Source: a virus. From it: a stretch of DNA of 28,079 bases. The translations under genes were made by a program, and so were the position numbers. Each line of letters opens with the position of its first letter. Within the stretch, counting starts at the first letter, position 1. The DNA lies in the IMG/VR virus record IMGVR_UViG_3300028025_001476, positions 1-28,079 of that record. The stretch is one strand, 5' to 3'. Shown piece by piece: positions 2,647 to 27,853 of the stretch. Below the pieces are notes generated by a model that was not told the DNA's origin, searched no databases, and was given only the letters and a program-made list of their open reading frames with translations.

Positions 2647-2660
2647 CAAAGTAGGGGACA

Positions 2661-3203
2661 ATGACAACAATTATAGGGCTTGAATATAAAGACAGCGCAG
2701 TAATTGTTGCTGATAGTCAGACTACTGATGAGAGTGGAAGAATTTATTCTCATCCAGATATTAAAAAAATCGCCGAACGCGGTTCATTCCTAATTGCTGG
2801 CTCAGGTGAAGTTTTACCTTGCGATATAGCCCAACACATATGGGAGCCACCAGCAGTAACTAAGGCTGATTACAAAGACTTGTATCACTTTATGATTGCT
2901 AAGGCTATGCCATCTCTACGCAAATGCTTATCAGAGAATGGTTACAACTTTGATGAAGACAATAAAGAAATGCGTTTTCAGTTTATCATTGCAGTCGGTG
3001 GAGAAATATTTGATGTAGACCAAGAGTGTTCAGTATCTAAAACTGACACAGGAGTCTACGCTGCAGGTTCAGGTGCAGCATATGCACTTGGTGCACTACA
3101 CGCTGGAGCAGATGCTTACGAAGCAATGGAAATTGCAAGTAAACTTACAGCCTTTACAGCAAAACCTTATTATTCAAAAACACAACCTAAACATATTAAG
3201 TAG
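2661..3203 (+). CDS. Proteasome/HslV-like Ntn-hydrolase, candidate capsid maturation protease
   Basis: This 180-residue protein begins MTTIIGLEYKDSAVIVADSQ. After removal of Met1 it has an N-terminal Thr, an Asp at mature position 17 in ADSQ, and Lys-Lys at mature positions 34-35. These match the catalytic Thr1, Asp17 and Lys33 of proteasome beta subunits and HslV. The glycine-rich LIAGSGEV corresponds to the segment near the oxyanion hole, and GSGAAYALGALHAGADAYEAMEIA resembles the C-terminal helix pair of that fold. Such enzymes are N-terminal-threonine proteases that assemble in rings. No HslU or ATPase partner is seen. The gene sits between portal and head-protein genes, where phages usually encode the prohead protease, so capsid or scaffold processing is the likely job (inference). 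Ribosome site GTAGGGGACA lies just before the ATG. The fold call is strong and the role is not proven. Confidence 0.8.
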   Translation: MTTIIGLEYKDSAVIVADSQTTDESGRIYSHPDIKKIAERGSFLIAGSGEVLPCDIAQHIWEPPAVTKADYKDLYHFMIAKAMPSLRKCLSENGYNFDEDNKEMRFQFIIAVGGEIFDVDQECSVSKTDTGVYAAGSGAAYALGALHAGADAYEAMEIASKLTAFTAKPYYSKTQPKHIK

Positions 3204-3211
3204 GAGGAACA

Positions 3212-3691
3212 ATGGCGGGAAATGAGAACAGTGGCGGATTTCGCCCAAGTGCTCCACAAAACAATCCAGCAAATGTTAACCCTCTTGGCGGTAACGGACA
3301 GTCAGGACAGGCAAATCCAAATTACACAGGATTCGCTTATGGCGAAAATATGGCACTAGAAAATCAAGCAGGTTCAGCAACAATGGCTAAGGCTTCAACT
3401 CCAGCACCAAGTCAACCTGCACCAGCACAATCTATGAGTTCAGTAATGGGTGGATTAATGCCACTTGATGCGGAGTCACAAGATTCTCTTCCTATTTCAG
3501 ATGGTGTAGATATTGGTCGTGGACGCGGAAGCGAAGCCCTTCCTCCTGCTTTAAATTCAGATACACGTATAACTGAAAACATTGATTTAATGAAACGATA
3601 CCTACCTGACCTTATTGATGCAGCCCGACTACCTGGAGCACCTGACTCATATAAGCGTCTTGTTAACTATGTCAAGTCAAGGCTTATTTAA
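3212..3691 (+). CDS. Hypothetical head-module protein, disordered N-terminus
   Basis: I do not recognise this 159-residue protein. Residues 1-75 are low complexity, rich in Asn, Gly, Gln, Pro and Ser (for example QPAPAQSMSSVMGGLMPL), and probably disordered. The C-terminal 40 residues (ENIDLMKRYLPDLIDAARLP, then SYKRLVNYVKSRLI) look like two amphipathic helices that could bind a partner. A strong AGGAGG ribosome site overlaps the stop codon of the protease gene, and its own stop overlaps the start of the next gene. The coupling implies co-translation with the head module. A virion component, or a protease substrate or scaffold accessory, is plausible but not shown. Confidence 0.6.
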   Translation: MAGNENSGGFRPSAPQNNPANVNPLGGNGQSGQANPNYTGFAYGENMALENQAGSATMAKASTPAPSQPAPAQSMSSVMGGLMPLDAESQDSLPISDGVDIGRGRGSEALPPALNSDTRITENIDLMKRYLPDLIDAARLPGAPDSYKRLVNYVKSRLI

Positions 3692-3897
3692 TGAAATGGG
3701 TAGAAAATAACTTTTTTGACCATTTAGATAAGTTTGGCAACTCACTAGGTTATGAAAACTTTGGTGTTGCTGTATGCCTATCAATGGTTCCCTGGGAATC
3801 ACCACAAGACAGAGATGTATTTATTATGTCTTTAACTGGAGAGGATGTTAAAGGTGGAGAACCGTCAACATTTAATCCAGAAGGCGCGGTGATGTAG
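3691..3897 (+). CDS. Small hypothetical protein, 68 residues
   Basis: This small acidic, aromatic-rich protein begins MKWVENNFFDHLDKFGNSLG and has no family I recognise. It contains a moderately hydrophobic centre (FGVAVCLSMVPW) and an acidic C-terminus (GEDVKGGEPSTFNPEGAVM). The start codon shares one base with the preceding stop (TAATG), and its TAG stop overlaps the GTG start of the giant gene that follows. This double coupling is the main reason to accept it as real. It may be a chaperone or partner of the giant protein, but that is only inferred from position. Confidence 0.6.
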   Translation: MKWVENNFFDHLDKFGNSLGYENFGVAVCLSMVPWESPQDRDVFIMSLTGEDVKGGEPSTFNPEGAVM

Positions 3898-6800
3898 TGT
3901 CATTATGGAGCGATTTTCTTGATAATATTCAAGGTGCTGCAAAAACTGCAGGAAGCGCAGTAAGTGGCGTAGCAGGTGGAATTGCAAGTGGTGTTACAGG
4001 TACTGTAGGTGGACTCGTAGGTGGAGTCACAGGTACTGTAGCAAAATCTGGTGCATCTTTAGGTGCATCACAAATGTTTAAGGGACGACCTGACCTAGCC
4101 GCTGCTGCTGCTATTGGTGCAGAAGAGAGAACATCTCGTGCACTTGAAAAGGCTGGCATTACTCCTGTAGAAAAAACTGTGGCAAAGGTTGCAGACCCAG
4201 TTTTATATGTTGGTGAAAAAGCAGAAAAGTATGTTTTTAGCCCAGTAATTGCTCGTCCAATTTCTACTGCATTTTTATTAACTGACCCAAACAGTGTTCT
4301 ATACAATTCAGATAAACTTGGTCAAGGATTCCAGTTATCTGACGTAGTTGATGCATACAACAGAAGCGAAAAGGTTTCTCTTGGCGTATCAATGACTAAA
4401 TCAATGATAAATCCTCTTGCTGGAATTACTACACCAATTCTTGAGTCTGGTGGAATTGACCTATCTAATGTTGACCTATGGAATGACGAAGATGTAAAAA
4501 AGAATTTTCAAGACAACGTAGTTGGTAGATGGGTTACAGGAACATCTGACTTCATTATTAAGAATGTTGCTATTGCACGTGTTGGAACTACAGCATCTGC
4601 TTTAGCCAAAGCCGCTGCTACACGTTCTGGGTTAAACACATCACTTAAAGTTGGCGACATTAATGCTATGCCGCAGTGGGAAAAGTTAGCAACTGACCAT
4701 ATTGATTTTATTAAATCAAATGGTGCAACTGGTACTCGTTCTAATCTTGGAGAAGACATTCAGAGAATTGCTGAATCTGATGATTTAATCCTTATTAAAA
4801 ATACTATAGAGAAGTACAGTAATAATCCTAGACTTCTTCCATTGTTCAAAGAGACCAAAGACCCAGAGTTTGTAAGAGATGGATTTCTTGCTGATATTGG
4901 TTATGGTCCAGCAATAGAGCGTCTTGCATCAGCCCGACGTAGAGACGACTTGTGGTACTTGGCAGACGGAAACGCTGAGACACAAGGTGCATTCATAACC
5001 ACTGGTAAGGTCCCAGACTTTACTCCAGACCAGCGTGCTCGTTGGATGGGTGCATTTGATGATGCAATTGCTAAAGACCCTAAGAATCAAGAAATCTTTG
5101 ATGCATTCTTAAAGCAAGTTGAAAATCCAGAGACTGGCGTAATGTCTATTGAGCCAACATTCTTTGGCAAAGGATATAAGCCAGCAGAACCAATTATTGG
5201 TAAGGCTGCATTTACTGCAACACGTAACCGAGCAGCACAACTAAAGGCTGCAGCAATTCAAAGAGATTTCTCTAAGGTGGGTGGAGTTACACAGACAGTT
5301 CTAAGTTCTCGTGTTGGTGGACCTGTAACTGTTCTTATGCGTAATGTTGGAACCTATATGCCAAAGGGCATTGTTTCTTTTTCTGGTCTACGCCCATCTC
5401 AAGGCATAGATGAGTTAATATCAGTATTTGATGACGTTCCTTTGTTTACAAGGGGCGAAAAACTTATTACAATTTCAGAACGTACACCTCAGATTACTGT
5501 ATCTCAATACCGAACTCAAGTTATTGATAGATTTGTTTCTGCAGCAAACGATGGCGATAGAGCCAATGTAATTAAAGATTTAAACAAAGAACTTGCTAGA
5601 GTTGTTGCATACAACAGGGGCGTTTTTGACAACAATCTTATTGATGAATTTGTTGATGGACTAATGCAGAATGTTAACTCTGTTCACGGTCAATTACGCA
5701 GTACTGGTTTTGCATATGACCCATCTGGTGCTCGTATTGCAGTCAATGCAATTACTCAGCGCCAATTAGCCAACACTGAAGTAATGCTTCCATTTGGTCA
5801 ATTAGATAGAATGCTTCGTCGTGCTGAAAGACAAGAGCGTTCAAGGTTGACAAGTCTTCCAGCAGATACACTATCTATTACTTCTGCTGGAGCAAGACAA
5901 ATATTTGAGGCTGGTAACAAAGCCTTCTCTCTTGCTCAACTGTATCGTTTTGCATACATACCTAAGAACTCAATAATGGAACCAATTTTGTCTGCAACTA
6001 TGGCATCTGGTATGGATTTTGTCCGACCTTTGACAACACAGGCTAGCCGAGGCATACTTGATAGGTCAACTAATTTTATTATGCGTAATGTTGAGAAGAG
6101 CAAGACTGTTCTTCCTAGCCGTAAAAGAGAAATTCAACGAGAGATTAAAGCACTTCGTGACCAATATGATAGGGCTATTAATAATCGTGATGAAGCATTT
6201 CTTGAATACCAAGAGTTCTTCTCTGATACACCTACCGTATCTCCTTCTGCACGTCGTGATTGGTCTGATACCGTTAAGGCTGACCTTCGTGATGCAGAAC
6301 GCATTGTAGATGATATTGAGTCAAGACTGAATCAATATACTGTTGATTTTGGTAACAATAAAAAAATTGACGTACCAACTATATATGGACTACAACGCAG
6401 ACTTGAGGCACTAAAGAAAGCAAAAGACCCACGCTTTGGTGCAGACATTGCCAACGCACAAGCGGTTATTGCTAAGGCAACAGGTAACATAAATACTTTG
6501 ACACCTGAACTTAATGCTTTAAATAATGAAGTTGCTAGTGCATATACACGCTTGACCAGCATTATGGATGAGTTAGCACCTAAATTGCGTGAAGAAGCAG
6601 ACCTGCTTTCTATCGCAGAAAATCGTTATGCTAAAAAACCTATAATGCCACAGACCACAAAGGTAAGACTTAAGAATGGTCAGACATTTGATATGCCATC
6701 ATTTTCAAACCAACAATATCTTGGTGATGGCTATACAAGCGAAATTGCAAATATGTCAACTCGGACACTTGAGTTTCTTGGTAACAAGGCAATTGCTGGT

Positions 6801-9062
6801 AAGGTAAACAGAATTAGTCGCAAGACACCTGGAACACCTACAAAGCCAACTGATGTAGGTTATTTTGATGAACTTGCTTTTATTGTTAACAACCATATGC
6901 GTGGGGATATTCTTGTAGACCAAATCCTTTCAGGTTCTGGTCGTGAGTTACTTCTTAAGTGGGGTACTACAAAGCAGGGCGCCTCTTATGCTAAAAATAT
7001 GGGTCGTATGCCAGAGGATATTGTAGAGATTATTGACAACTCAATTTCATATGTTAATAGTTACCTACCAACAGCCCAGGCTCGCAGTATTGCTGCTGCT
7101 GGAAATGTTAAGGTTACAGACCTACAACGTGAACTTGCAGACAAACTAGATTCTATGGTTCCAATTCAACCATTAGATATTGAGTATGCAAACCCAACAA
7201 CTTTAGGTGGAACATTTAATCAAGCAATTGATTACTACTCATCAAAAGCGTGGCAACAACTGGCACGTCCAGAAAACATCTCTCGTGAAATATGGGGAAA
7301 TGTTGAGCACGTAAAGCGTACTACTCAGAAACTAGATTCTCTTGTAGCAAGTGGAGTAGAAGTAGACCTAGCAACTGCACTATCTGTGCGCCAGGCTGCT
7401 GCTGCTGAGGTTGTCAAGGAAGTCTCCAATGTCTTCTATACAATTCCACGTCAGCATCGTGCGTTGTATCTTGCTCGTACAGTGTCCCAGTTCCCTAATG
7501 CTTCTGCTAGTGGAATTTACCGATATGGTCGCTTCGCAGCAAAACAACCTACACGTGTTGCAGGATTCTTAAATAGTTACTATGGTCTATACAATTCATT
7601 TGGCGTAGATAAGTACGGTAACCCAGTTGAAGACCCAATGAAGGCTGAGTATCTATTAGTTCCAGGTTCCAAAGAACTAGGATTTAATAAAGGCAAGGGT
7701 ATTATTCTAAGCGCCCGTGCAACAAACTTTATTGCCAACTTGCCAGGTCCAGCCTGGATTGTCCCAATCGCAGTAGGTAAGTTATTAGATTCAAAGCCTA
7801 ACTCTCGTGATGTCATTAAAGATATTATTGATAATTCTATAGGTAAGGTTCCTAATTACTCATATGATGAATTGTTCCCATTTGGTGTAGAAACTAATAC
7901 TGCAAAGCAACTAAAGACAACATTTACACCTGCCTGGGCAAGAAATGTTCAGAGTGCATTTAGCAAAAAAGACACAGATTTAATGTGGATGCAGTCATAC
8001 CAGTCAGAGTCTAATCGTCAATGGATTCTTTATGATATGGAATTAGGTCCTAAGCCAACAGAAAAGTCAGTAATTGACGCAACTGAGAGTATATTCTTAC
8101 GCAAGGCTCGTACTCAATTCTTCTCACTATTTGGAAGCCCACAGTTTGTGGATACACTTCCAGATAGCATATATAAGGATTACTATTACACTCGTTTGAA
8201 TAAGTACAAGGCTCAGATTGACCCTGAGACCAACAAGCCATTTACTCAGAAAAAAGCCCTTGCTTTAGCAGAGGCTGATTTCCAAACTAATATGCGTCTT
8301 GCTGGTGGAAAAGACTTTCCAATGGACCGTCTATTCCTTTCTGTTAAGAGCAAGGTTGCAAACATACCTGCCAATGAAAAGGCTTACGATAGAATCTGGA
8401 ACGACTTCTCTGGTCTTGCAAAACAACTAGAAAGTTTAGACCCATCAACGGTTGCACTATTGACGGCTGATATTCCTGTTGAATATAATGGTCAAGTCAA
8501 AAAGTTTCTTGAAGACCCTAATACAACATTGCCTGGTGGCACGACTCTTAATGAAAAGTTAAGAACACCAAAGCAAATTGAAGAGGAACTAGAAAGAACA
8601 CGTGTGTGGAGAGCATACTCTGACTACAAGGAAGAACTTAACGCTGCAGCAAAAAAGGCTAACTATGCTAGTTACCGAAGTGTTCCTGAATTAAAAGAAT
8701 TAATGCAGCAACACGTAAATAACCTATCTGAGTACAGCACTCTATGGCGTAACGAGTACAACAAGAATGTTACTAGCGGAGATTCTGCCTGGGTTCAATC
8801 ACAGGGTCTTTATGAGATTGTTAAAAACGATAAGTTTATGAAACAGTTTGGTGATACACAATTTTGGCGTCAAGCCAAGGGCTTTTTGTCCTATCGTGAT
8901 TCTGTTGCCAAGGCTTACAAAGATGCTCCTACTGGTTCAAAAGGCAAAGTCCAGGAACAATGGGCAGACTACCTTGAGGGAACACTTGATATGTGGGACC
9001 CAGTAATGCAGAAGTTAATCTCACGATACTTTATTAATGATAATCTGAAGGAGAATAAGTAA
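3897..9062 (+). CDS. Giant 1721-residue protein, probable internal virion/ejection protein
   Basis: This is the largest gene in the window. It starts with GTG, overlapping the previous stop by one base. Residues 12-60 are Gly/Ala/Val/Thr-rich with repeated GVTGTVGG-type units, resembling a membrane-inserting amphipathic segment. The middle (about 730-915) is strongly helical and coiled-coil-like (SRKREIQREIKALRDQYDRA; ALNNEVASAYTRLTSIMDEL). The C-terminal third is a mix of helices and aromatic loops (SYYGLYNSFGVDKYGNPVED; NFIANLPGPAWIVPIAVGKL). I see no clear lysozyme, nuclease or polymerase motif. Very large proteins encoded next to head genes in short-tailed phages are often packaged in the capsid and ejected to build a channel or deliver an activity, as with T7 gp16 or N4 gp50. 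That role here is inferred. It is read together with the two proteins that follow. A tape-measure role is less likely because no tail-tube genes are present. Confidence 0.7.
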   Translation: MSLWSDFLDNIQGAAKTAGSAVSGVAGGIASGVTGTVGGLVGGVTGTVAKSGASLGASQMFKGRPDLAAAAAIGAEERTSRALEKAGITPVEKTVAKVADPVLYVGEKAEKYVFSPVIARPISTAFLLTDPNSVLYNSDKLGQGFQLSDVVDAYNRSEKVSLGVSMTKSMINPLAGITTPILESGGIDLSNVDLWNDEDVKKNFQDNVVGRWVTGTSDFIIKNVAIARVGTTASALAKAAATRSGLNTSLKVGDINAMPQWEKLATDHIDFIKSNGATGTRSNLGEDIQRIAESDDLILIKNTIEKYSNNPRLLPLFKETKDPEFVRDGFLADIGYGPAIERLASARRRDDLWYLADGNAETQGAFITTGKVPDFTPDQRARWMGAFDDAIAKDPKNQEIFDAFLKQVENPETGVMSIEPTFFGKGYKPAEPIIGKAAFTATRNRAAQLKAAAIQRDFSKVGGVTQTVLSSRVGGPVTVLMRNVGTYMPKGIVSFSGLRPSQGIDELISVFDDVPLFTRGEKLITISERTPQITVSQYRTQVIDRFVSAANDGDRANVIKDLNKELARVVAYNRGVFDNNLIDEFVDGLMQNVNSVHGQLRSTGFAYDPSGARIAVNAITQRQLANTEVMLPFGQLDRMLRRAERQERSRLTSLPADTLSITSAGARQIFEAGNKAFSLAQLYRFAYIPKNSIMEPILSATMASGMDFVRPLTTQASRGILDRSTNFIMRNVEKSKTVLPSRKREIQREIKALRDQYDRAINNRDEAFLEYQEFFSDTPTVSPSARRDWSDTVKADLRDAERIVDDIESRLNQYTVDFGNNKKIDVPTIYGLQRRLEALKKAKDPRFGADIANAQAVIAKATGNINTLTPELNALNNEVASAYTRLTSIMDELAPKLREEADLLSIAENRYAKKPIMPQTTKVRLKNGQTFDMPSFSNQQYLGDGYTSEIANMSTRTLEFLGNKAIAGKVNRISRKTPGTPTKPTDVGYFDELAFIVNNHMRGDILVDQILSGSGRELLLKWGTTKQGASYAKNMGRMPEDIVEIIDNSISYVNSYLPTAQARSIAAAGNVKVTDLQRELADKLDSMVPIQPLDIEYANPTTLGGTFNQAIDYYSSKAWQQLARPENISREIWGNVEHVKRTTQKLDSLVASGVEVDLATALSVRQAAAAEVVKEVSNVFYTIPRQHRALYLARTVSQFPNASASGIYRYGRFAAKQPTRVAGFLNSYYGLYNSFGVDKYGNPVEDPMKAEYLLVPGSKELGFNKGKGIILSARATNFIANLPGPAWIVPIAVGKLLDSKPNSRDVIKDIIDNSIGKVPNYSYDELFPFGVETNTAKQLKTTFTPAWARNVQSAFSKKDTDLMWMQSYQSESNRQWILYDMELGPKPTEKSVIDATESIFLRKARTQFFSLFGSPQFVDTLPDSIYKDYYYTRLNKYKAQIDPETNKPFTQKKALALAEADFQTNMRLAGGKDFPMDRLFLSVKSKVANIPANEKAYDRIWNDFSGLAKQLESLDPSTVALLTADIPVEYNGQVKKFLEDPNTTLPGGTTLNEKLRTPKQIEEELERTRVWRAYSDYKEELNAAAKKANYASYRSVPELKELMQQHVNNLSEYSTLWRNEYNKNVTSGDSAWVQSQGLYEIVKNDKFMKQFGDTQFWRQAKGFLSYRDSVAKAYKDAPTGSKGKVQEQWADYLEGTLDMWDPVMQKLISRYFINDNLKENK

Positions 9063-10180
9063 TGGCTGGCGGCAAAACCGACGAAAAAACAGATATACCA
9101 CAAGGACCAGTCATAACTGTTACTCCTAAAGATAATGCTAAAAAGATTTCATACATCTGGATGCCAGATAAAAATGGCAATCTTGTAAAAGCAGATGCTT
9201 CTAAAGTAAAGAAGTCATTTGCTACATTACCTCAAGATGCGGTTCTTGCTCTTCAAGAGTTTTTGATTACAGTAGAAAACAAGACTAACCCAACCCGTGC
9301 CCAGCGTAATACCCTGTGGAACGATATTATTGATGGCGCTGCTGCGGCATTCAAGGATGGACAGAAAGTAAGTCCTTGGGAAGTTTTAGAGACTCTTACA
9401 CAGAATGCTCCAGATGTCAGCGGTATATCTGTTTCCTATACAGAGTACGACAAACTTACTGCAGATGCACTTCTTAATAAAGTATCTAAGAAAATAGGCT
9501 TTGATGTAAATAACTTAAGTGATGCTGATAAGGCTGAGTACTTTGCTAAGTTACAACAAGAAGCCAAGGCTGGTGGTAAAACAGTAACCCGTAAGGCTGC
9601 TGCAGGTGGAGTAGAGCAAGTAACAACTCCTTCAACCTTTGATGCTTTATCTTTTACTGAATCCTTTATTTGGGCTAAAGTAAACTTTGCTGATACAACT
9701 AAGTTGCCATCATCTGCAATCACGAGTATCTCTGGTGTAAAGTCACTACTTCGTCAATACAACATTACCAATCTTAGCCAGATGGAGATTGACCAACTTG
9801 GAATTGACTTAGCATCAGGTTCTAAATCACTAGATACTATTAAGTTAGACTTCCAACAGAAGGCTATTAAGGATTATCCTGCTTTGGCTTCACGCTTTGA
9901 ATCAAATCCTAACTTAACTGTACGTGCTGCGTTAGAGCCAATCCTAAATACTGTAGCAAAGTTATGGGAAGTTGACCCTGAGTCACTTGACCTTAATGAC
10001 CCAAACATTGAAAAGTTAGTACGTCCTGATGGAGTAGTTGGAAAACTGCCACCAGCATCAGTTGCTGAAGCATATAACTTTGCAATCAACCACCCAAATT
10101 TTGAGAAAACTTTAAAGGCTCAAGATATGGCACGTGATTCCGCTACTAGCGTCGCAAGAGCGATGGGATTTGGAATATAA
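9062..10180 (+). CDS. Hypothetical structural protein, possible internal virion protein (372 residues)
   Basis: I do not recognise a named family. The N-terminus is charged and lysine-rich (MAGGKTDEKTDIPQGPVITV). From about residue 60 the protein is mostly helical, with a short Lys/Gly/Ala-rich linker near residues 165-185 (KAGGKTVTRKAAAGGVEQ). It ends in a Met/Gly-rich tail (SVARAMGFGI). The ATG overlaps the giant gene's stop (TAATG) after an AAGGAG ribosome site, and its stop overlaps the next start. The three-gene chain suggests a stoichiometric set, perhaps internal or ejection proteins. No signal peptide or membrane helix is visible. Confidence 0.6.
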   Translation: MAGGKTDEKTDIPQGPVITVTPKDNAKKISYIWMPDKNGNLVKADASKVKKSFATLPQDAVLALQEFLITVENKTNPTRAQRNTLWNDIIDGAAAAFKDGQKVSPWEVLETLTQNAPDVSGISVSYTEYDKLTADALLNKVSKKIGFDVNNLSDADKAEYFAKLQQEAKAGGKTVTRKAAAGGVEQVTTPSTFDALSFTESFIWAKVNFADTTKLPSSAITSISGVKSLLRQYNITNLSQMEIDQLGIDLASGSKSLDTIKLDFQQKAIKDYPALASRFESNPNLTVRAALEPILNTVAKLWEVDPESLDLNDPNIEKLVRPDGVVGKLPPASVAEAYNFAINHPNFEKTLKAQDMARDSATSVARAMGFGI

Positions 10181-11445
10181 TGGCTGGCAAAATAACTAAC
10201 CAGGCTGCTATTGACGCCGCCATAAGACAGAATGCTGTTAACGCTGCAAAAACAAAGGCAGCCGCTACTGTTGTCCAGCAACTACAACCACGTCAAGAAA
10301 CAGCCAAGCAAATCTCAGAGAGGGCTTCAAGTCTTCTTGATTTAGCAACTAAAATTGGTAAGAAAAAAGATGATGTTTCAAAGACGCAACCTATTGTAGA
10401 TAAAGCAAGCGGTATAATAAGCACTCAAAGAAGCACAGTTATTGACCCATACGAAAAAGCATTAAGAGATATAGAAACTTTTAGTAATCAGATAGCAGTG
10501 CCTAGTGCGATATTTGCTACAGAAGAAGAAGCCCCAGTTAGAACATTGGCTATTGATGTTTTTAAGCAAACTCTTGGTATGTTCTTTGGTCAAACAGAAA
10601 TGCAAAAGCCTTGGGTAAATGAACTATATTCATCTGTATCTAAGTTCTATAAATCAGGTTCTACCGCAGATGAGTCTTTCAACCTAGCGGTTCTAGATGT
10701 TCAAAAGAACCCTAATATGACTGAGTTCACAAAGCGTTTCAAGGGTATCTATGCCCTACAGGAAATGAAGCAAAAGGGTCAGGCTGTAACAGTGCCGACA
10801 GTTGCTGAATACTTTGCAACAGAGGCAAAGATGGGCGATATTCTTAAGCAATCATCTCTTGGAGAACTTGCTAACGAAGACTTCCTTGGAGATGTACTTG
10901 CTAAGGGTGTATCTGCAACAGAGTTTGCCAATAGAATTACAGCAATTTTTGATAGAATTGATAATGCTCCAAAAGAAACTAAAGACACAATTAGTAGATT
11001 CTTCCCATCTGTAGACAGAGTAAGTCTTGCTAAGGCTATTGCTCTAGGCGATAAGGGAGCAAAGGAATTGCAGAGTAAAGTAGCAGGGTATGAAGTTCTA
11101 TCTGCTGCAGAAAAGCAGGGACTTGGAGCATCAGCAACCAATCCATTTGGTGTCACGGAAGCAAGTGCTTATCAGTATGCCCTTAGCGGTGAAACGTTTG
11201 ATACAGCATTAACTAAATTTGGAACAATTGCTGCAGCATTGCCAACAGTTAATAAATTAACTCAGATTTATGGTCAAGAAACAATTGGACAGGCTGGTCT
11301 TGAATCAGCAATCTTTGGTAAGTCTGCTGCAGATATAAAGCGACTTGAAGATATAGCAAGAAAAGAAGAAGCATCATTCTCTGGAAGAAGCGGTGTTTCA
11401 CAAGTAAGTCTAGCATCTCAACGTAGAGCCGCTGGCTTAATCTAA
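10180..11445 (+). CDS. Hypothetical structural protein, possible internal virion protein (421 residues)
   Basis: This helix-rich, Ala/Lys/Gln-rich protein has no family I can name. Residues 1-60 form a probable long amphipathic helix (AIDAAIRQNAVNAAKTKAAA). The body includes the segment TLGMFFGQTEMQKPWVNELY and ends with a Ser/Arg-rich tail (SGRSGVSQVSLASQRRAAGL) after a charged helix (AADIKRLEDIARKEEASF). It starts MAGK, like its neighbour's MAGG, and is joined to it by a TAATG overlap. It is the last gene before the structured leader and scaffold-capsid pair. An internal virion role is likely from context only. Confidence 0.6.
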   Translation: MAGKITNQAAIDAAIRQNAVNAAKTKAAATVVQQLQPRQETAKQISERASSLLDLATKIGKKKDDVSKTQPIVDKASGIISTQRSTVIDPYEKALRDIETFSNQIAVPSAIFATEEEAPVRTLAIDVFKQTLGMFFGQTEMQKPWVNELYSSVSKFYKSGSTADESFNLAVLDVQKNPNMTEFTKRFKGIYALQEMKQKGQAVTVPTVAEYFATEAKMGDILKQSSLGELANEDFLGDVLAKGVSATEFANRITAIFDRIDNAPKETKDTISRFFPSVDRVSLAKAIALGDKGAKELQSKVAGYEVLSAAEKQGLGASATNPFGVTEASAYQYALSGETFDTALTKFGTIAAALPTVNKLTQIYGQETIGQAGLESAIFGKSAADIKRLEDIARKEEASFSGRSGVSQVSLASQRRAAGLI

Positions 11446-11573
11446 ACAAATAGAATCCTGAACGGACCGACCAGCCCCGTCAGCGTAACAGACTGGTAGC
11501 AAGAGCCAGACCGATTCCCCGATTGGAACCTGAGGCTTGCGAACTAACTAATAGAGAAGGGTGGATGGTTGCT
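11446..11573 (+). promoter_or_regulatory. GC-rich structured non-coding leader before scaffold and capsid genes
   Basis: This is 128 bases with no convincing gene between two tightly packed gene blocks. Bases 11460-11540 are visibly more GC-rich than the flanks. Possible pairings: 11470-11474 with 11493-11497 (ACCAG/CTGGT); alternatively 11493-11497 with 11505-11509 (CTGGT/GCCAG, 7-base loop); 11499-11503 plus 11506-11507 with 11534-11540 (GCAAG..CC/GGCTTGC); and TTCC 11515-11518 with GGAA 11525-11528. CCGATT is directly repeated at 11511 and 11519. A weak -10-like TAGAAT lies at 11451, with no good -35. It could be a leader raising capsid expression, an RNA processing site or a protein-binding RNA. 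None of these is proven. Confidence 0.45.
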
Positions 11574-12053
11574 ATGAGCAACAACTACTGGGACGAAGAC
11601 GAAGACGACCTAGATACTGATGTATCTGAAACACAGATGGATGGCAGTGACCTCTTAAAGAAGTTACGAAAAGCCAAACGTAATGATGAGAAACGTATCA
11701 AAGAACTCACTGAGCAACTTGAGGGTTTAACCAAGTCGCAGCGTGAGCGTACAGTCAAGGAAGTCCTAGACAAGAAAGGTGTAAATCCTAAGGCACAACG
11801 CTTAATCTTGAAAGACTTAGACGAAGTTACTGAAGAGTCAGTGAATAACTGGCTTGAAGATAATGGAGACTTATTCGGATTAACTGTGAATAAGGACGCA
11901 CCTGCAGTAAGTGATATAGACCGTGCAGCATTGCGCCAGCAAGACTCTATCACGCAAGGTGCAATAACACCTGACCGAGCAGAGAACCTAGAACAGAGAC
12001 TCAACAGTGCAGATTCTGCAGAAGAGATTCTTTCTATCCTTCGCTCACAATAA
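11574..12053 (+). CDS. Capsid scaffolding protein
   Basis: This 159-residue protein has the features of a tailed-phage scaffold and lies immediately upstream of the major capsid gene. The N-terminus is very acidic (NNYWDEDEDDLDTDVSE). A basic, strongly helical coiled-coil segment follows at residues 28-60 (LLKKLRKAKRNDEKRIKELT), and the C-terminal helix (RLNSADSAEEILSILRSQ) may contact the capsid protein. It would guide shell assembly and be removed or cleaved before packaging. I chose ATG 11574 (MSNNYW). In-frame alternatives are ATG 11565, close behind AAGGG at 11557-11561, and TTG 11523, which would run into the structured leader. The exact start is uncertain by a few residues. Confidence 0.75.
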   Translation: MSNNYWDEDEDDLDTDVSETQMDGSDLLKKLRKAKRNDEKRIKELTEQLEGLTKSQRERTVKEVLDKKGVNPKAQRLILKDLDEVTEESVNNWLEDNGDLFGLTVNKDAPAVSDIDRAALRQQDSITQGAITPDRAENLEQRLNSADSAEEILSILRSQ

Positions 12054-12092: not shown

Positions 12093-13040
12093 ATGGCATA
12101 TGTATCAACAGCATCCGATTCACTCGGAGGTACCGCTGGTGGTGCTGGTCTAGTACAAAAGGCTTATGACCGTCTCTTGGAGTTCGCACTCCGCTCAGAG
12201 CCACTCATTCGTTCAGTTGCTGACAAGCGCCCTACAAACCAATCAATCCCAGGTTCAACAGTTGTTCTACAACGCTACGTTGACTTGGCTGCTGCAACAA
12301 CAGCACTAACAGAAACAACAGACCCAGATGCAGTAGCAATGTCTACACCAACATCTGTGACAATCACTCTTGCAGAGTACGGTAACTCAGTTCTCGTAAC
12401 TCGCGCACTTGAGTTGTTCTCACTTGCAGATGTAGACCCAGCAATTGCAAACATTATCGCATTCAACCTTGCAGATTCAATTGACGCCGTAGCAATGACA
12501 ACATTGCGTGGCGGTTCAAACGTAATCTACTCAGGTTCAACAGCAACATCTACAGCAACAGTTACTGCTGCTGCAACAATTTCATCTGCAAACATCCGTC
12601 GCGCAGTTGCAAAACTTCGTGCGAACAAGGCATCAGCACGCAAGGGTTCACTATACTGGGCTGGAATCCACCCAGAAGTTTCACACGACCTACGCGCTGA
12701 GACAGGTTCAGCAGGATGGCTACTTCCAAACCAGTACGGTTCAGCACAGGACCGCATCTGGGCAGGAGAAATCGGAACATACGAAGGTGCATACTTCGTA
12801 GAGTCTCCACGTCTATACAATGCAACAGATGGTTCATCATCTGCTCGCGTTTACCGCACAATCGTTGCTGGACAGCAAGCGTTGGCTGAGGCAGTTGCCG
12901 AAGAGCCACACGTAGTTATCGGACCAGTAGTTGACAAGTTAATGCGTCACCGCCCAATGGGTTGGTACGGCGTACTAGGCTTTGCTCGCTACCGCGAAGA
13001 GGCACTATTCCGCATTGAATCAGGTTCATCAATCGCTTAA
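12093..13040 (+). CDS. Major capsid protein, N4-gp56 family
   Basis: This 315-residue protein would be the shell subunit with an HK97-like fold. Hallmarks of the N4-gp56 family are visible: an N-terminal helix (AYDRLLEFALRSEPLIRSVA), the segment GSTVVLQRYVDLAAATTALT, the repeated-strand region VTITLAEYGNSVLVTRALEL, and the C-terminal KLMRHRPMGWYGVLGFARYR followed by EEALFRIESGSSIA. A clear AAAAAGGAAATAACCTA site precedes the ATG. Codon choice differs from the neighbours, with many C-ending codons (AAC, TAC, ATC, CGC), as expected for a very highly expressed gene. The scaffold gene lies 39 bases upstream and a stable hairpin follows the stop. No prohead-delta domain is evident at the N-terminus. 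Confidence 0.88.
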   Translation: MAYVSTASDSLGGTAGGAGLVQKAYDRLLEFALRSEPLIRSVADKRPTNQSIPGSTVVLQRYVDLAAATTALTETTDPDAVAMSTPTSVTITLAEYGNSVLVTRALELFSLADVDPAIANIIAFNLADSIDAVAMTTLRGGSNVIYSGSTATSTATVTAAATISSANIRRAVAKLRANKASARKGSLYWAGIHPEVSHDLRAETGSAGWLLPNQYGSAQDRIWAGEIGTYEGAYFVESPRLYNATDGSSSARVYRTIVAGQQALAEAVAEEPHVVIGPVVDKLMRHRPMGWYGVLGFARYREEALFRIESGSSIA

Positions 13041-16544: not shown

Positions 16545-18734
16545 ATGCCAACAGTTAGAAAATATTCCTCACGCTCACAGCAGACAACGCTGTCAAGCGC
16601 AGTTACATCTAGTGGTACATCAATCACAGTTGTCTCTGCAGCATCCCTTCTTGGTGGAGTTACTGTAGCCGCTAATGAAGTGTTCACGATTGTCATTGAC
16701 CCTGATACGGCTCTTGAAGAAATTGTAGATGTAGTCTCCGCAGCGGGTAACCCTGTCTCTGGAAACACAATTACTATTGTTCGTGGACGTGATGGTTCCT
16801 CTGGCACGGCGCACTCTGCTGGTGCCGTTGTTCGTCATATGGCTATCGGTAGAGATTACCGTGAAGCAAATGAGCACATCAATGAGACTGCATCAGCGCA
16901 CGGTTTAACTCTTACTGATGTTGTCACAACTACAAATACAAAGACTTTAACTAATAAAACAATCAGTGCTGCAGATAACACCCTTACTGGTGTAGCAACT
17001 CTTACTGGAACACAGACATTAACCAACAAGACTTTGACTAGCCCAACCATTACTGGAACTGGTGCTATTGCTGGTACTTTTACAGGAAACCTTACAGGTA
17101 ACGTAACTGGTAACGTATCAGGTAGCGCAGGAAGTGCAACAGGTAATGCAGCAACTGCAACCGCTTTGGCTACTGGTCGTACATTCCAATTAGTTGGAGA
17201 TGTAGAAGCAAGTGGAGTTACTTTTGATGGCACAGGAAACGTAAGCCTAACAACTGTAATTGGTACTGGTGCTATCGTAAACGCAGATGTTAATGCTTCT
17301 GCTGCTATCGCAGCAAGTAAGATTGCTGGTACTGCTGTAACTCAGGCTGATACAGGCACTGTTACTTCTACAATGATTGCCAATGGCACTATCGTAGATG
17401 CTGACGTTAATGCATCCGCTGCTATTGCTAAGACTAAGTTAAACCTTGGTGGAACTATTACTTCCGCTGACTTGGTTGATGGAACTATCGTAGCCTCAGA
17501 TATTGCTGACGGTACTATCACTGCAGCCAAGATGGTTACAGACCCATATGCTCGTGCTAACCATACTGGTAGCCAGCCAGCATCAACTATCTCAGATTTC
17601 AACACAGCAGTACGCACATCTCGTTTAGACCAAATGGCTGCACCTACTGGCTCAGTTGCCTTAAACGCACAGAAACTTACTGGAGTAGCAGACCCAACAT
17701 CAGCACAGGATGCTTCAACTAAAGCATACGTTGATGCTCAGGTTAACGCTCTTGTAGATGGTGCTCCTGGAACTCTTAACACTCTTAATGAAATTGCTAC
17801 AGCAATCTCTAGTGGTGGTTCATTTGAATCTACAGTAGTACTCAAGTCAGGTTCTACTATGACTGGTGCTCTTACCTTGTCAGGTGCTCCTACAGTAGAC
17901 CTACACGCTGCTACAAAGGCGTATGTAGATACAGTTGCTGGTTCTGCTACTGCTGCTGCAGCAAGTGCAACGGCTGCTGCTGCATCATATGATTCTTTTG
18001 ATGACCGCTACTTAGGTGCTAAAGCAAGTGCACCTTCTGTAGACAATGACGGTAATGCACTTATTGAAGGTGCTCTTTACTGGAACTCAACATCTAATGC
18101 AATGCTTGCCTGGGATGGCGCTGCTTGGGCATCTATCTCATCAACTGCAGACATCTTCCGCTATCGCTACACAGCATCTGGTGGAGAGACTTCAGAGTCA
18201 GGTCCAGATGATAATGGTTTAACACTTTCATATATTGTTGGCAAAGAGCAAGTATACCTAAACGGTGTACTTCTAGTTCGCTCAACAGATTATGTAGCAA
18301 CTAATGGAACAAGCATTGCCTCTCTTGCAGCCTTGGCTTCTGGAGATATTCTTGAAATCATTACCTTCACAGCATTTGACCTAGCAAATGTAATTAGCCC
18401 AACAGTTATTGATGCTAAGGGTGACTTAATTGCAGGTACATCTGCAGACACTATAGGTAAACTAACCGTTGGAACTAACGGACAGTACCTACAGGCTGAC
18501 TCAAGTACAGCCACTGGATTAACCTGGTCAACAGTATCTGGCTACTCAGCCCCAACTTTAGGCTCAACAAGTATTGCATCAGGTGCAACGGTAACAACAA
18601 TTGCTGGTCTAACTCTGACAGCACCAACTTTAACTGGAACAGTAACTGCATCAGGAGATATTAACCTATCTGCTGCAGGTGGCCCAGGAAGCATAGTAGA
18701 CGAACTAACACTCATTCTTATGGGTGCCCTCTAA
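16545..18734 (+). CDS. Tail fibre protein with repeat-built shaft (729 residues)
   Basis: Residues 1-125 form an attachment domain (VFTIVIDPDTALEEIVDVVS; IVRGRDGSSGTAHSAGAVVR). The shaft follows, with TKTLTNKT/TQTLTNKTLTSPTITG repeats (125-172), TGNLTGNVTGNVSGSAGSAT, two NADVNASAAI/DADVNASAAI units (about 245 and 282) and two KAYVD units (about 392 and 456). A second beta domain at 530-610 (YTASGGETSESGPDDNG; KEQVYLNGVLLVRSTDYV) and a DAKGDLIAGTSADTIGKL unit near 620 are common in phage fibres. It ends DELTLILMGAL without a bulky receptor-binding head, so the adhesins encoded next probably provide the tip. The TAAGGA ribosome site overlaps the preceding stop. Trimerisation is expected from the family style. 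Confidence 0.85.
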   Translation: MPTVRKYSSRSQQTTLSSAVTSSGTSITVVSAASLLGGVTVAANEVFTIVIDPDTALEEIVDVVSAAGNPVSGNTITIVRGRDGSSGTAHSAGAVVRHMAIGRDYREANEHINETASAHGLTLTDVVTTTNTKTLTNKTISAADNTLTGVATLTGTQTLTNKTLTSPTITGTGAIAGTFTGNLTGNVTGNVSGSAGSATGNAATATALATGRTFQLVGDVEASGVTFDGTGNVSLTTVIGTGAIVNADVNASAAIAASKIAGTAVTQADTGTVTSTMIANGTIVDADVNASAAIAKTKLNLGGTITSADLVDGTIVASDIADGTITAAKMVTDPYARANHTGSQPASTISDFNTAVRTSRLDQMAAPTGSVALNAQKLTGVADPTSAQDASTKAYVDAQVNALVDGAPGTLNTLNEIATAISSGGSFESTVVLKSGSTMTGALTLSGAPTVDLHAATKAYVDTVAGSATAAAASATAAAASYDSFDDRYLGAKASAPSVDNDGNALIEGALYWNSTSNAMLAWDGAAWASISSTADIFRYRYTASGGETSESGPDDNGLTLSYIVGKEQVYLNGVLLVRSTDYVATNGTSIASLAALASGDILEIITFTAFDLANVISPTVIDAKGDLIAGTSADTIGKLTVGTNGQYLQADSSTATGLTWSTVSGYSAPTLGSTSIASGATVTTIAGLTLTAPTLTGTVTASGDINLSAAGGPGSIVDELTLILMGAL

Positions 18735-26235: not shown

Positions 26236-26979
26236 ATGGCAGACAAGGGAACGGCACAAGCAATCATTGAGGTTGCTCTTGGTGAAGTTGGAACCATTGA
26301 AGGTCCTAAGGATAATGAAACAAAGTACGGCAAGTTTATGAAGGCTAACTACCTAGCGTGGTGTGGCTCATTTGTAAACTGGTGTGCTAATCAAGCAGGA
26401 GTAAAAATTCCTAACTGTGTTTCAACAGTTGCAGGAGCAGGAGCATTTAAGAAAATGAAGACTTGGTTTGAGGCAGATTGCGGACAATCTCCACAGCCAG
26501 GCGATATTGTTTTCTTTGACTTTCCAGGAGATGGCGTAGACCGCATCTCTCACGTTGGAATCTGTACTCACATTGAAGCCGATGGGGTTATCTTGACTAT
26601 TGAAGGAAACACATCTTCAAAGAAATCAGGAAGCCAAAGAAATGGCGGAGAAGTGTGCAAGCAAGTTCGTGCATACAAGAAAAACAAAAAAGGTATTACT
26701 GTTAGCATTGTTGGTTGGGGTCGTCCTAACTACGATGGTAATGAGGTAATAGCACAGGTCCCAGTACCTGAGAAGCCAGCATTTCCAGGGCGTATTACGC
26801 CAGGAGATAAGGGCGAGGGAGTTAAGATAGTTCAGCGAGCACTTGGCTTAAAGGCTGATGGCATCTATGGTCCAATAACCAGACAGAACGTCATTAAGTT
26901 TCAAGACAACCACGATATTGTTGACAGCAATGGTATCGTTGGTCCTAAGACTTGGGCAGAACTTATCAAATTCCTTTAA
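26236..26979 (+). CDS. Endolysin: CHAP amidase/peptidase with C-terminal peptidoglycan-binding domain
   Basis: This 247-residue wall hydrolase releases progeny. Residues 5-165 form a CHAP (NlpC/P60-like) domain with catalytic Cys43 in LAWCGSFVNWCANQAG, His106 in RISHVGICTHIE, and the polar third position in TIEGNTSS (Glu123/Asn125). Residues about 188-246 form a PG_binding_1 domain (GDKGEGVKIVQRALGLKADG; GIYGPITRQNVIKFQ; GIVGPKTWAELIKFL). No signal peptide is present, so a holin is needed for release. AAGGAG lies 8 bases before the ATG. CHAP enzymes cut amide or peptide bonds of peptidoglycan. The exact bond cannot be predicted here. Confidence 0.9.
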   Translation: MADKGTAQAIIEVALGEVGTIEGPKDNETKYGKFMKANYLAWCGSFVNWCANQAGVKIPNCVSTVAGAGAFKKMKTWFEADCGQSPQPGDIVFFDFPGDGVDRISHVGICTHIEADGVILTIEGNTSSKKSGSQRNGGEVCKQVRAYKKNKKGITVSIVGWGRPNYDGNEVIAQVPVPEKPAFPGRITPGDKGEGVKIVQRALGLKADGIYGPITRQNVIKFQDNHDIVDSNGIVGPKTWAELIKFL

Positions 26980-27277: not shown

Positions 27278-27853
27278 TCATTTCTTCTGGAGCCAGACTT
27301 GGTAATCCTTGGATAGTAATTCGTACTCGCCAGTATATTTGGCAAGGAAATCATCTATCGCTGGCTTAGGTGTTGTGTGTGGGGGTAGGTCTTCTCCCCA
27401 TCTGTAATCATCAAAGGCTAGGATTCCATTAGGCTTAAGGATTGACCAACAACTTTCAGCATCTTCTGCCACAGCCTTTGCTGTATGGTCTCCGTCTATG
27501 TAGATGAAGTCGTAGGAATCCCTGAGGTTAGGTAAAGCGTACTCAGACTTAGAGCAGATAGATAACAAATTGTTATACTTCTCTGTGCGCTGGTTGTAAT
27601 AAGCCTGAACACCTGAGAACGAAATGAGTTTATGTTCACGCTCATCTGAGCCTTCCCAAGTATCTATATCTGTAAGGGTAGATGATGGGTCGGTTAGAAT
27701 ATTATCAAGTAACCAGACGGAAGCATCACCTGTGTATGCACCAATCTGTAAGAACTTAAGGTTAGATTGACCAGCCAGTTGGGTTAGATGATTTTCAAAG
27801 TTGTATTGTTGACCTGCGAACCAGTTGGGAAATGTCGGTGTGTCGTTTTGCAT
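27278..27853 (-). CDS. Class I SAM-dependent methyltransferase (Methyltransf_24-like)
   Basis: This is the only convincing minus-strand gene. The 191-residue product has the Rossmann-fold SAM motif KFLQIGAYTGDASVWLL (33-49), the ribose-binding region with acidic residues at LTDIDTWEGSD (60-70), and a metal/acidic motif YDFIYIDGDHTAKAV (114-128) with the following ILKPNGILAFDDYRW (138-152). These match methyltransferase family 24, which often acts on sugars or small metabolites. The substrate is unknown. It converges on the late operon. Its ribosome site AGACAGGA (27867-27860) is 6 bases from the ATG. The gene may have been acquired separately, given its orientation. Confidence 0.8.
   Translation of the reverse strand: MQNDTPTFPNWFAGQQYNFENHLTQLAGQSNLKFLQIGAYTGDASVWLLDNILTDPSSTLTDIDTWEGSDEREHKLISFSGVQAYYNQRTEKYNNLLSICSKSEYALPNLRDSYDFIYIDGDHTAKAVAEDAESCWSILKPNGILAFDDYRWGEDLPPHTTPKPAIDDFLAKYTGEYELLSKDYQVWLQKK

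Follow-up and report, generated by a model that had tools for sequence, protein, structure and literature searches.

Homologues of the proteasome are already known from tailed phages. Fuchs et al. 2021 (PMC8665760) named three phage-associated groups, PPH, AAH, and CPH, and found no Actinobacteria-specific phage that carries AAH. Among the better-described relatives are the beta-proteobacterial proteasome homologue BPH (5ovs, 5ovt, and 5ovu), which has no known unfoldase (PMC8665760), and HslV (ClpQ) of the HslUV system. In individual phages, pSal-SNUABM-04 has two HslV genes and no HslU, a BPH gene is mentioned for RXM and a phage proteasome homologue for vB_EliS-L02, and ORF47 of the podovirus VpV262 (NC_003907) is annotated as "peptidase HslV family." Our literature search found no functional study of phage proteasome homologues. 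What is new in the locus described here is the evidence that such a gene, placed inside a structural operon, is dispensable and that its alleles are exchanged.

The window, that is, the whole 28,079-nucleotide stretch of IMG/VR record IMGVR_UViG_3300028025_001476 analyzed here, contains a plus-strand gene at positions 2661 to 3203 that starts with ATG and encodes a 180-amino-acid protein of the proteasome-like (BPH/HslV group) N-terminal-nucleophile hydrolases, referred to below as Ntn. The first, sequence-only reading of the window had proposed this ORF, its setting among head genes, and the lack of another visible protease in the head module, and all three were confirmed. The gene starts 14 nt past the stop codon of the portal gene and ends 8 nt ahead of the next gene, and the ribosome-binding site region (positions 2649 to 2660, plus strand) carries AGGGG a few bases 5' of the ATG. 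This spacing and the AGGGG motif fit coexpression of Ntn with the structural operon. Among the window proteins that were scanned with Pfam, the only further protease domains were those of cell wall lysins.

All of the neighboring genes described here are on the plus strand. The ORF at positions 81 to 857 (phrog_38) covers only the 3' part of the gene for the terminase large subunit, which is truncated by the contig edge; the full protein has 621 to 622 amino acids in L083 and L002, and a split terminase was rejected. The portal protein gene (817 to 2646; phrog_104, E value of 9.7e-32) lies directly 5' of Ntn, here and in the other Ntn-bearing loci tested. Downstream of Ntn is the gene for gp159, a conserved low-complexity protein (3212 to 3691; phrog_8200), which in relatives lacking Ntn follows a small slot gene. 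A family of small acidic genes (about 70 to 86 amino acids) was also observed between Ntn, or the portal gene if Ntn is absent, and gp159, as in L178 (4886 to 5146) and at many loci that carry a different Ntn allele. A 68-amino-acid ORF call (3691 to 3897) is followed by the gene for a giant 1,721-amino-acid late protein (gp1721; 3897 to 9062), which is probably an internal or ejection protein. Giant-protein alleles on otherwise similar genomes are highly divergent, from undetectable similarity to 56% identity, in agreement with the 8-kb island reported between phages E7 and F5. An association of Ntn loss with a split giant protein was considered and rejected, as the giant proteins of Ntn-lacking loci have 1,532 to 1,758 amino acids where their ends are in reach. 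Next come genes for late proteins of 372 (9062 to 10180; phrog_6654) and 421 (10180 to 11445; phrog_8424) amino acids and for a probable scaffolding protein (11523 to 12053; phrog_7813, with a weak match to the scaffold family phrog_648). The scaffold-like gene has a TTG start and an in-frame ATG at position 11571, lies directly ahead of the major capsid protein (MCP) gene, and has the same position as the annotated scaffold gene of phage Dennebes. The 315-amino-acid MCP (12093 to 13040) belongs to the N4-gp56 family (TIGR04387, 132 bits versus a cutoff of 60; phrog_1357, 6.5e-82). Longer MCPs of 388 to 406 amino acids (L083, 17567 to 18763, and the contigs of L256, L301, and L302) have an insertion near residue 258 of the window MCP; this insertion is missing from the window protein and is found both with and without Ntn.

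Several comparisons identified Ntn as a genuine proteasome relative that is nearest to BPH and HslV. The protein passed the gathering cutoff of Pfam PF00227 (Proteasome, NTN clan; 25.0 versus 22.4 bits) and matched PHROG 1040, named "peptidase HslV family," over residues 1 to 170 (E value of 2.9e-28). It failed the NCBIfam HslV equivalogs (20.2 and 19.3 bits versus cutoffs of 137 and 157.75) and was also far under the cutoffs of the NCBIfam proteasome equivalogs, indicating that Ntn is a divergent member of the family. When a profile of 55 Ntn representatives was compared to PDB sequences, BPH scored 2.4e-10 and 4.3e-10 and HslV 2.6e-8. The sequence-only reading had proposed a comparison of a predicted structure to HslV and 20S beta subunits, and the AlphaFold2 model (pLDDT, 92.7; pTM, 0.89) indeed has the proteasome beta-type Ntn fold. 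The best Foldseek match in the PDB was BPH 5ovs (E value of 5.5e-11; TM score of 0.70). HslV and 20S beta subunits came next, and the three groups had a probability of 1.00 and TM scores of about 0.6 to 0.7. In the viral library, many further phage proteins matched, some of them annotated as HslV or as a proteasome subunit, and Q8LT63 of VpV262 was among the matches.

BPH, the best match by both profile and fold, shares with Ntn the Thr1/Asp17/Lys33-type active site and the lack of a propeptide; Ntn differs in being a viral protein of 180 amino acids that is about 20% identical to BPH (23% in the fold match) and is modeled as a single chain. With HslV, Ntn shares the fold, the catalytic set, and the GSG motif. 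Like PPH, AAH, and CPH, Ntn is a Group I proteasome-like protein encoded by a tailed phage. However, PPH has about 140 amino acids and no helix H2, whereas both helices H1 and H2 (residues 51 to 60 and 74 to 92) are present in the Ntn model. On account of its greater length and helix H2, Ntn is not a PPH as defined by Fuchs et al.

Thr1, Asp17, Lys34-Lys35, and an AGSG segment at residues 45 to 48, numbered after removal of the initiator methionine, are present as originally described. Thr1, Asp17, Lys35, and Gly48 are invariant in all 264 Ntn relatives, the representatives of which are down to about 28% identical. Both lysines had been placed in the catalytic set, but only Lys35 is the Lys33 equivalent; Lys34 varies (121 of 264). 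Gly48 is, by alignment, the likely equivalent of the oxyanion Gly47, and a second motif, GSGxxYALGA (residues 135 to 144), lines up with the region that holds GSG in BPH, HslV, and proteasome beta subunits. Thr1 directly follows the start codon in every relative, and thus there is no propeptide. The dN/dS ratio of Ntn (0.105) is close to those of the portal protein (0.107) and the MCP (0.101). Invariant catalytic residues and a low dN/dS ratio characterize a working enzyme rather than a relic, and Ntn is an intact, selected, and probably active threonine hydrolase. The initial assignment to the proteasome/HslV-like threonine hydrolases was upheld by the profiles, the model, and the invariant residues.

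The window phage is a member of a large freshwater family. Its isolated members include LanE43-AprE7 (E7; OX376640) and LanE43-AprF5 (F5; OX376641), phages of the cultured "Ca. Planktophila" LanE-43 (PMC10202952). Both have Ntn in the same slot and a portal protein that is 84 to 86% identical to that of the window, and they differ in carrying another Ntn allele (37 to 38% identical). A WhiB-like reading frame in L002, the Ntn of which is 99% identical to that of the window, indicates an actinobacterial host, and Pfam also finds WhiB in E7. Two scans of genome contigs, one with the Ntn protein and one with the portal protein, yielded no cellular homologues or host MAGs. Ntn lies at most 400 nt from the portal end in 260 of 260 testable Ntn-bearing loci, a number that is not an unbiased prevalence, since many of the loci were picked by Ntn similarity. 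The Ntn homologues of VpV262, AAS21, D'Alembert, and DSL-LC01 are outside the head genes; ORF47 of VpV262 is the last gene of the early/middle block on the plus strand.

The sequence-only reading had placed Ntn in the slot of the prohead protease and suggested a role in head maturation, which was not borne out by the N4-gp56 head type, the natural absence of Ntn from relatives with the same head, or the exchange of its alleles. Ntn is absent from 28 loci, 11 of the freshwater clade and 17 of the Streptomyces type. The isolated Streptomyces podoviruses (Beephvirinae) have portal proteins and MCPs that are 42 to 44% and 52 to 56% identical, respectively, and the same gene order; their slot contains only small genes without assigned function. 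The annotation of the complete genome of one of them, Manuel, includes no prohead protease, and the FlowerPower equivalent of the Manuel "peptidase" matches the cell wall NlpC/P60 families. In the 11 freshwater loci, the portal gene (71 to 86% identity) is followed by an ORF of 74 to 86 amino acids and then by a gp159-like gene, and no replacement protease was recognized in the slots read. The MCP of one of these, L178, is 94% identical to the window MCP. No Ntn copy was found elsewhere in a 40.0-kb contig, a 37.5-kb contig (the complete E7 genome, as a size reference, is 39.1 kb), or the complete Manuel genome in a search that had no internal positive; a local Ntn profile, used on the portal-adjacent slots, recovered 260 loci. 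Apart from the Streptomyces isolates, the Ntn-lacking genomes are metagenomic contigs, and a far-diverged copy elsewhere is conceivable. When the 40.0-kb contig was scanned with Pfam, no prohead protease family was among the matches listed (25 of 39 families). MCP lengths are similar with Ntn (315 amino acids in the window) and without it (about 320 amino acids), which leaves no additional N-terminal domain for a protease to cut off. In the mature N4 capsid structure, the N-terminal arm of the MCP (residues 1 to 46) is present in the model (PMC11768535). The head can thus probably be built and matured without Ntn, which is not supported as a prohead protease; its position beside the portal gene alone does not make it one.

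The presence and the alleles of Ntn also vary within the family. The portal tree contains at least seven changes between presence and absence of Ntn, and there are well-supported pairs of sisters with and without it (L281/L045, 0.995; L301/L154, 0.99; L274/L268, 0.989). Ntn alleles of five classes occur in mixed order among closely related portal proteins, some of them as close as 93% identical. Between L152 and L018, Ntn is 39% identical, while the portal proteins and MCPs are 86% and 94% identical, respectively. Across 15 loci, Ntn distance showed no significant correlation with those of TerL, portal, scaffold, and MCP, whereas these four correlated with each other. Across 156 loci, the correlation between Ntn and portal was significant but weaker than that between TerL and portal (0.43 versus 0.63). 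Ntn alleles have thus been swapped largely independently of the head genes, and the tie to head-gene history is weak.

A gene that is optional, under strong purifying selection, exchanged, and in other phages located outside the head modules is best explained as encoding an accessory enzyme. We therefore favor, with a probability of about 0.6, the view that Ntn is a dispensable and exchangeable accessory threonine protease that is encoded in the structural operon and acts on host or infection-stage proteins rather than on the head. Action on host proteins was the other role named in the sequence-only reading, and it is left standing. From the spacing and the ribosome-binding site, Ntn would be cotranscribed with the structural genes. 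A methionine aminopeptidase would expose Thr1, making propeptide processing unneeded, and the enzyme would most likely work as a small BPH/HslV-like oligomer. Its proteolytic activity could serve to remove defense or regulatory factors, for example, or contribute to late proteostasis. No AAA+ unfoldase of the HslU type was recognized in the complete E7 genome, another difference from HslV; only one plausible ATPase there has a classical P-loop motif, a 260-amino-acid protein taken as the DnaB-like ATPase of E7. By analogy with BPH, an uncapped Ntn ring might act on unfolded or short substrates, or a host ATPase might serve as its partner. The strict active site, the fixed slot, null genomes with near-identical heads, five allele classes, and two isolates on a cultured host together make it possible to test directly, with E7 and F5, what purpose a proteasome relative serves in phages.

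The strictly kept place behind the portal gene in the structural operon could also point to a role in the virion or in assembly. Ntn might be virion associated, being copackaged or ejected and either attacking host proteins at entry or trimming the ejection proteins, in which case it would be beneficial but not essential. Late operon placement between the portal gene and the genes for large internal proteins keeps this a live rival, although we consider it unlikely. Loci with and without Ntn encode an intact giant protein of similar length, which hence is not evidently a substrate of Ntn. Nor do the giant-protein alleles track those of Ntn: in L002, gp1721 similarity is undetectable at 99% Ntn identity, and in L091 gp1721 is 56% identical at only 37% Ntn identity. 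The boldest form of the idea, in which a proteasome-type threonine protease is packaged in a podovirus virion, ejected with the genome, and destroys host proteins at entry, with exchangeable alleles tuned to different host targets, is a long shot; if true, it would to our knowledge be the first case of a virus particle delivering an enzyme of the proteasome family. We also regard it as rather improbable that Ntn is a catalytic but nondegradative enzyme, such as a connectase-like ligase/transpeptidase or an acylase, that modifies one specific target. Connectase is a monomeric ligase within the proteasome-like superfamily (PMC8665760), and the lack of a recognized unfoldase partner gene in E7 would fit such a role, but H1 and H2, missing in connectase (PMC8665760), are retained in the Ntn model, and the best matches, BPH and HslV, are ring proteins. 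Cleavage of scaffold, MCP, or portal by Ntn during head assembly, for which the fixed place beside the portal gene and the lack of another recognized head protease in the window would speak, is very improbable, given the same head type in the Beephvirinae isolates and 11 freshwater relatives without Ntn or a recognized substitute in the slot, an N4-type MCP that has no additional N-terminal domain and is accompanied by a separate scaffold-like gene, and an Ntn history only weakly tied to the head genes.

Two further features of the window were observed. A Methyltransf_24 gene (27278 to 27853, minus strand; E value of 1.5e-18) lies near the CHAP/PG-binding endolysin gene (26236 to 26979), and a 729-amino-acid tail-type protein (16545 to 18734) with no Pfam match contains many repeated T/N/G motifs.
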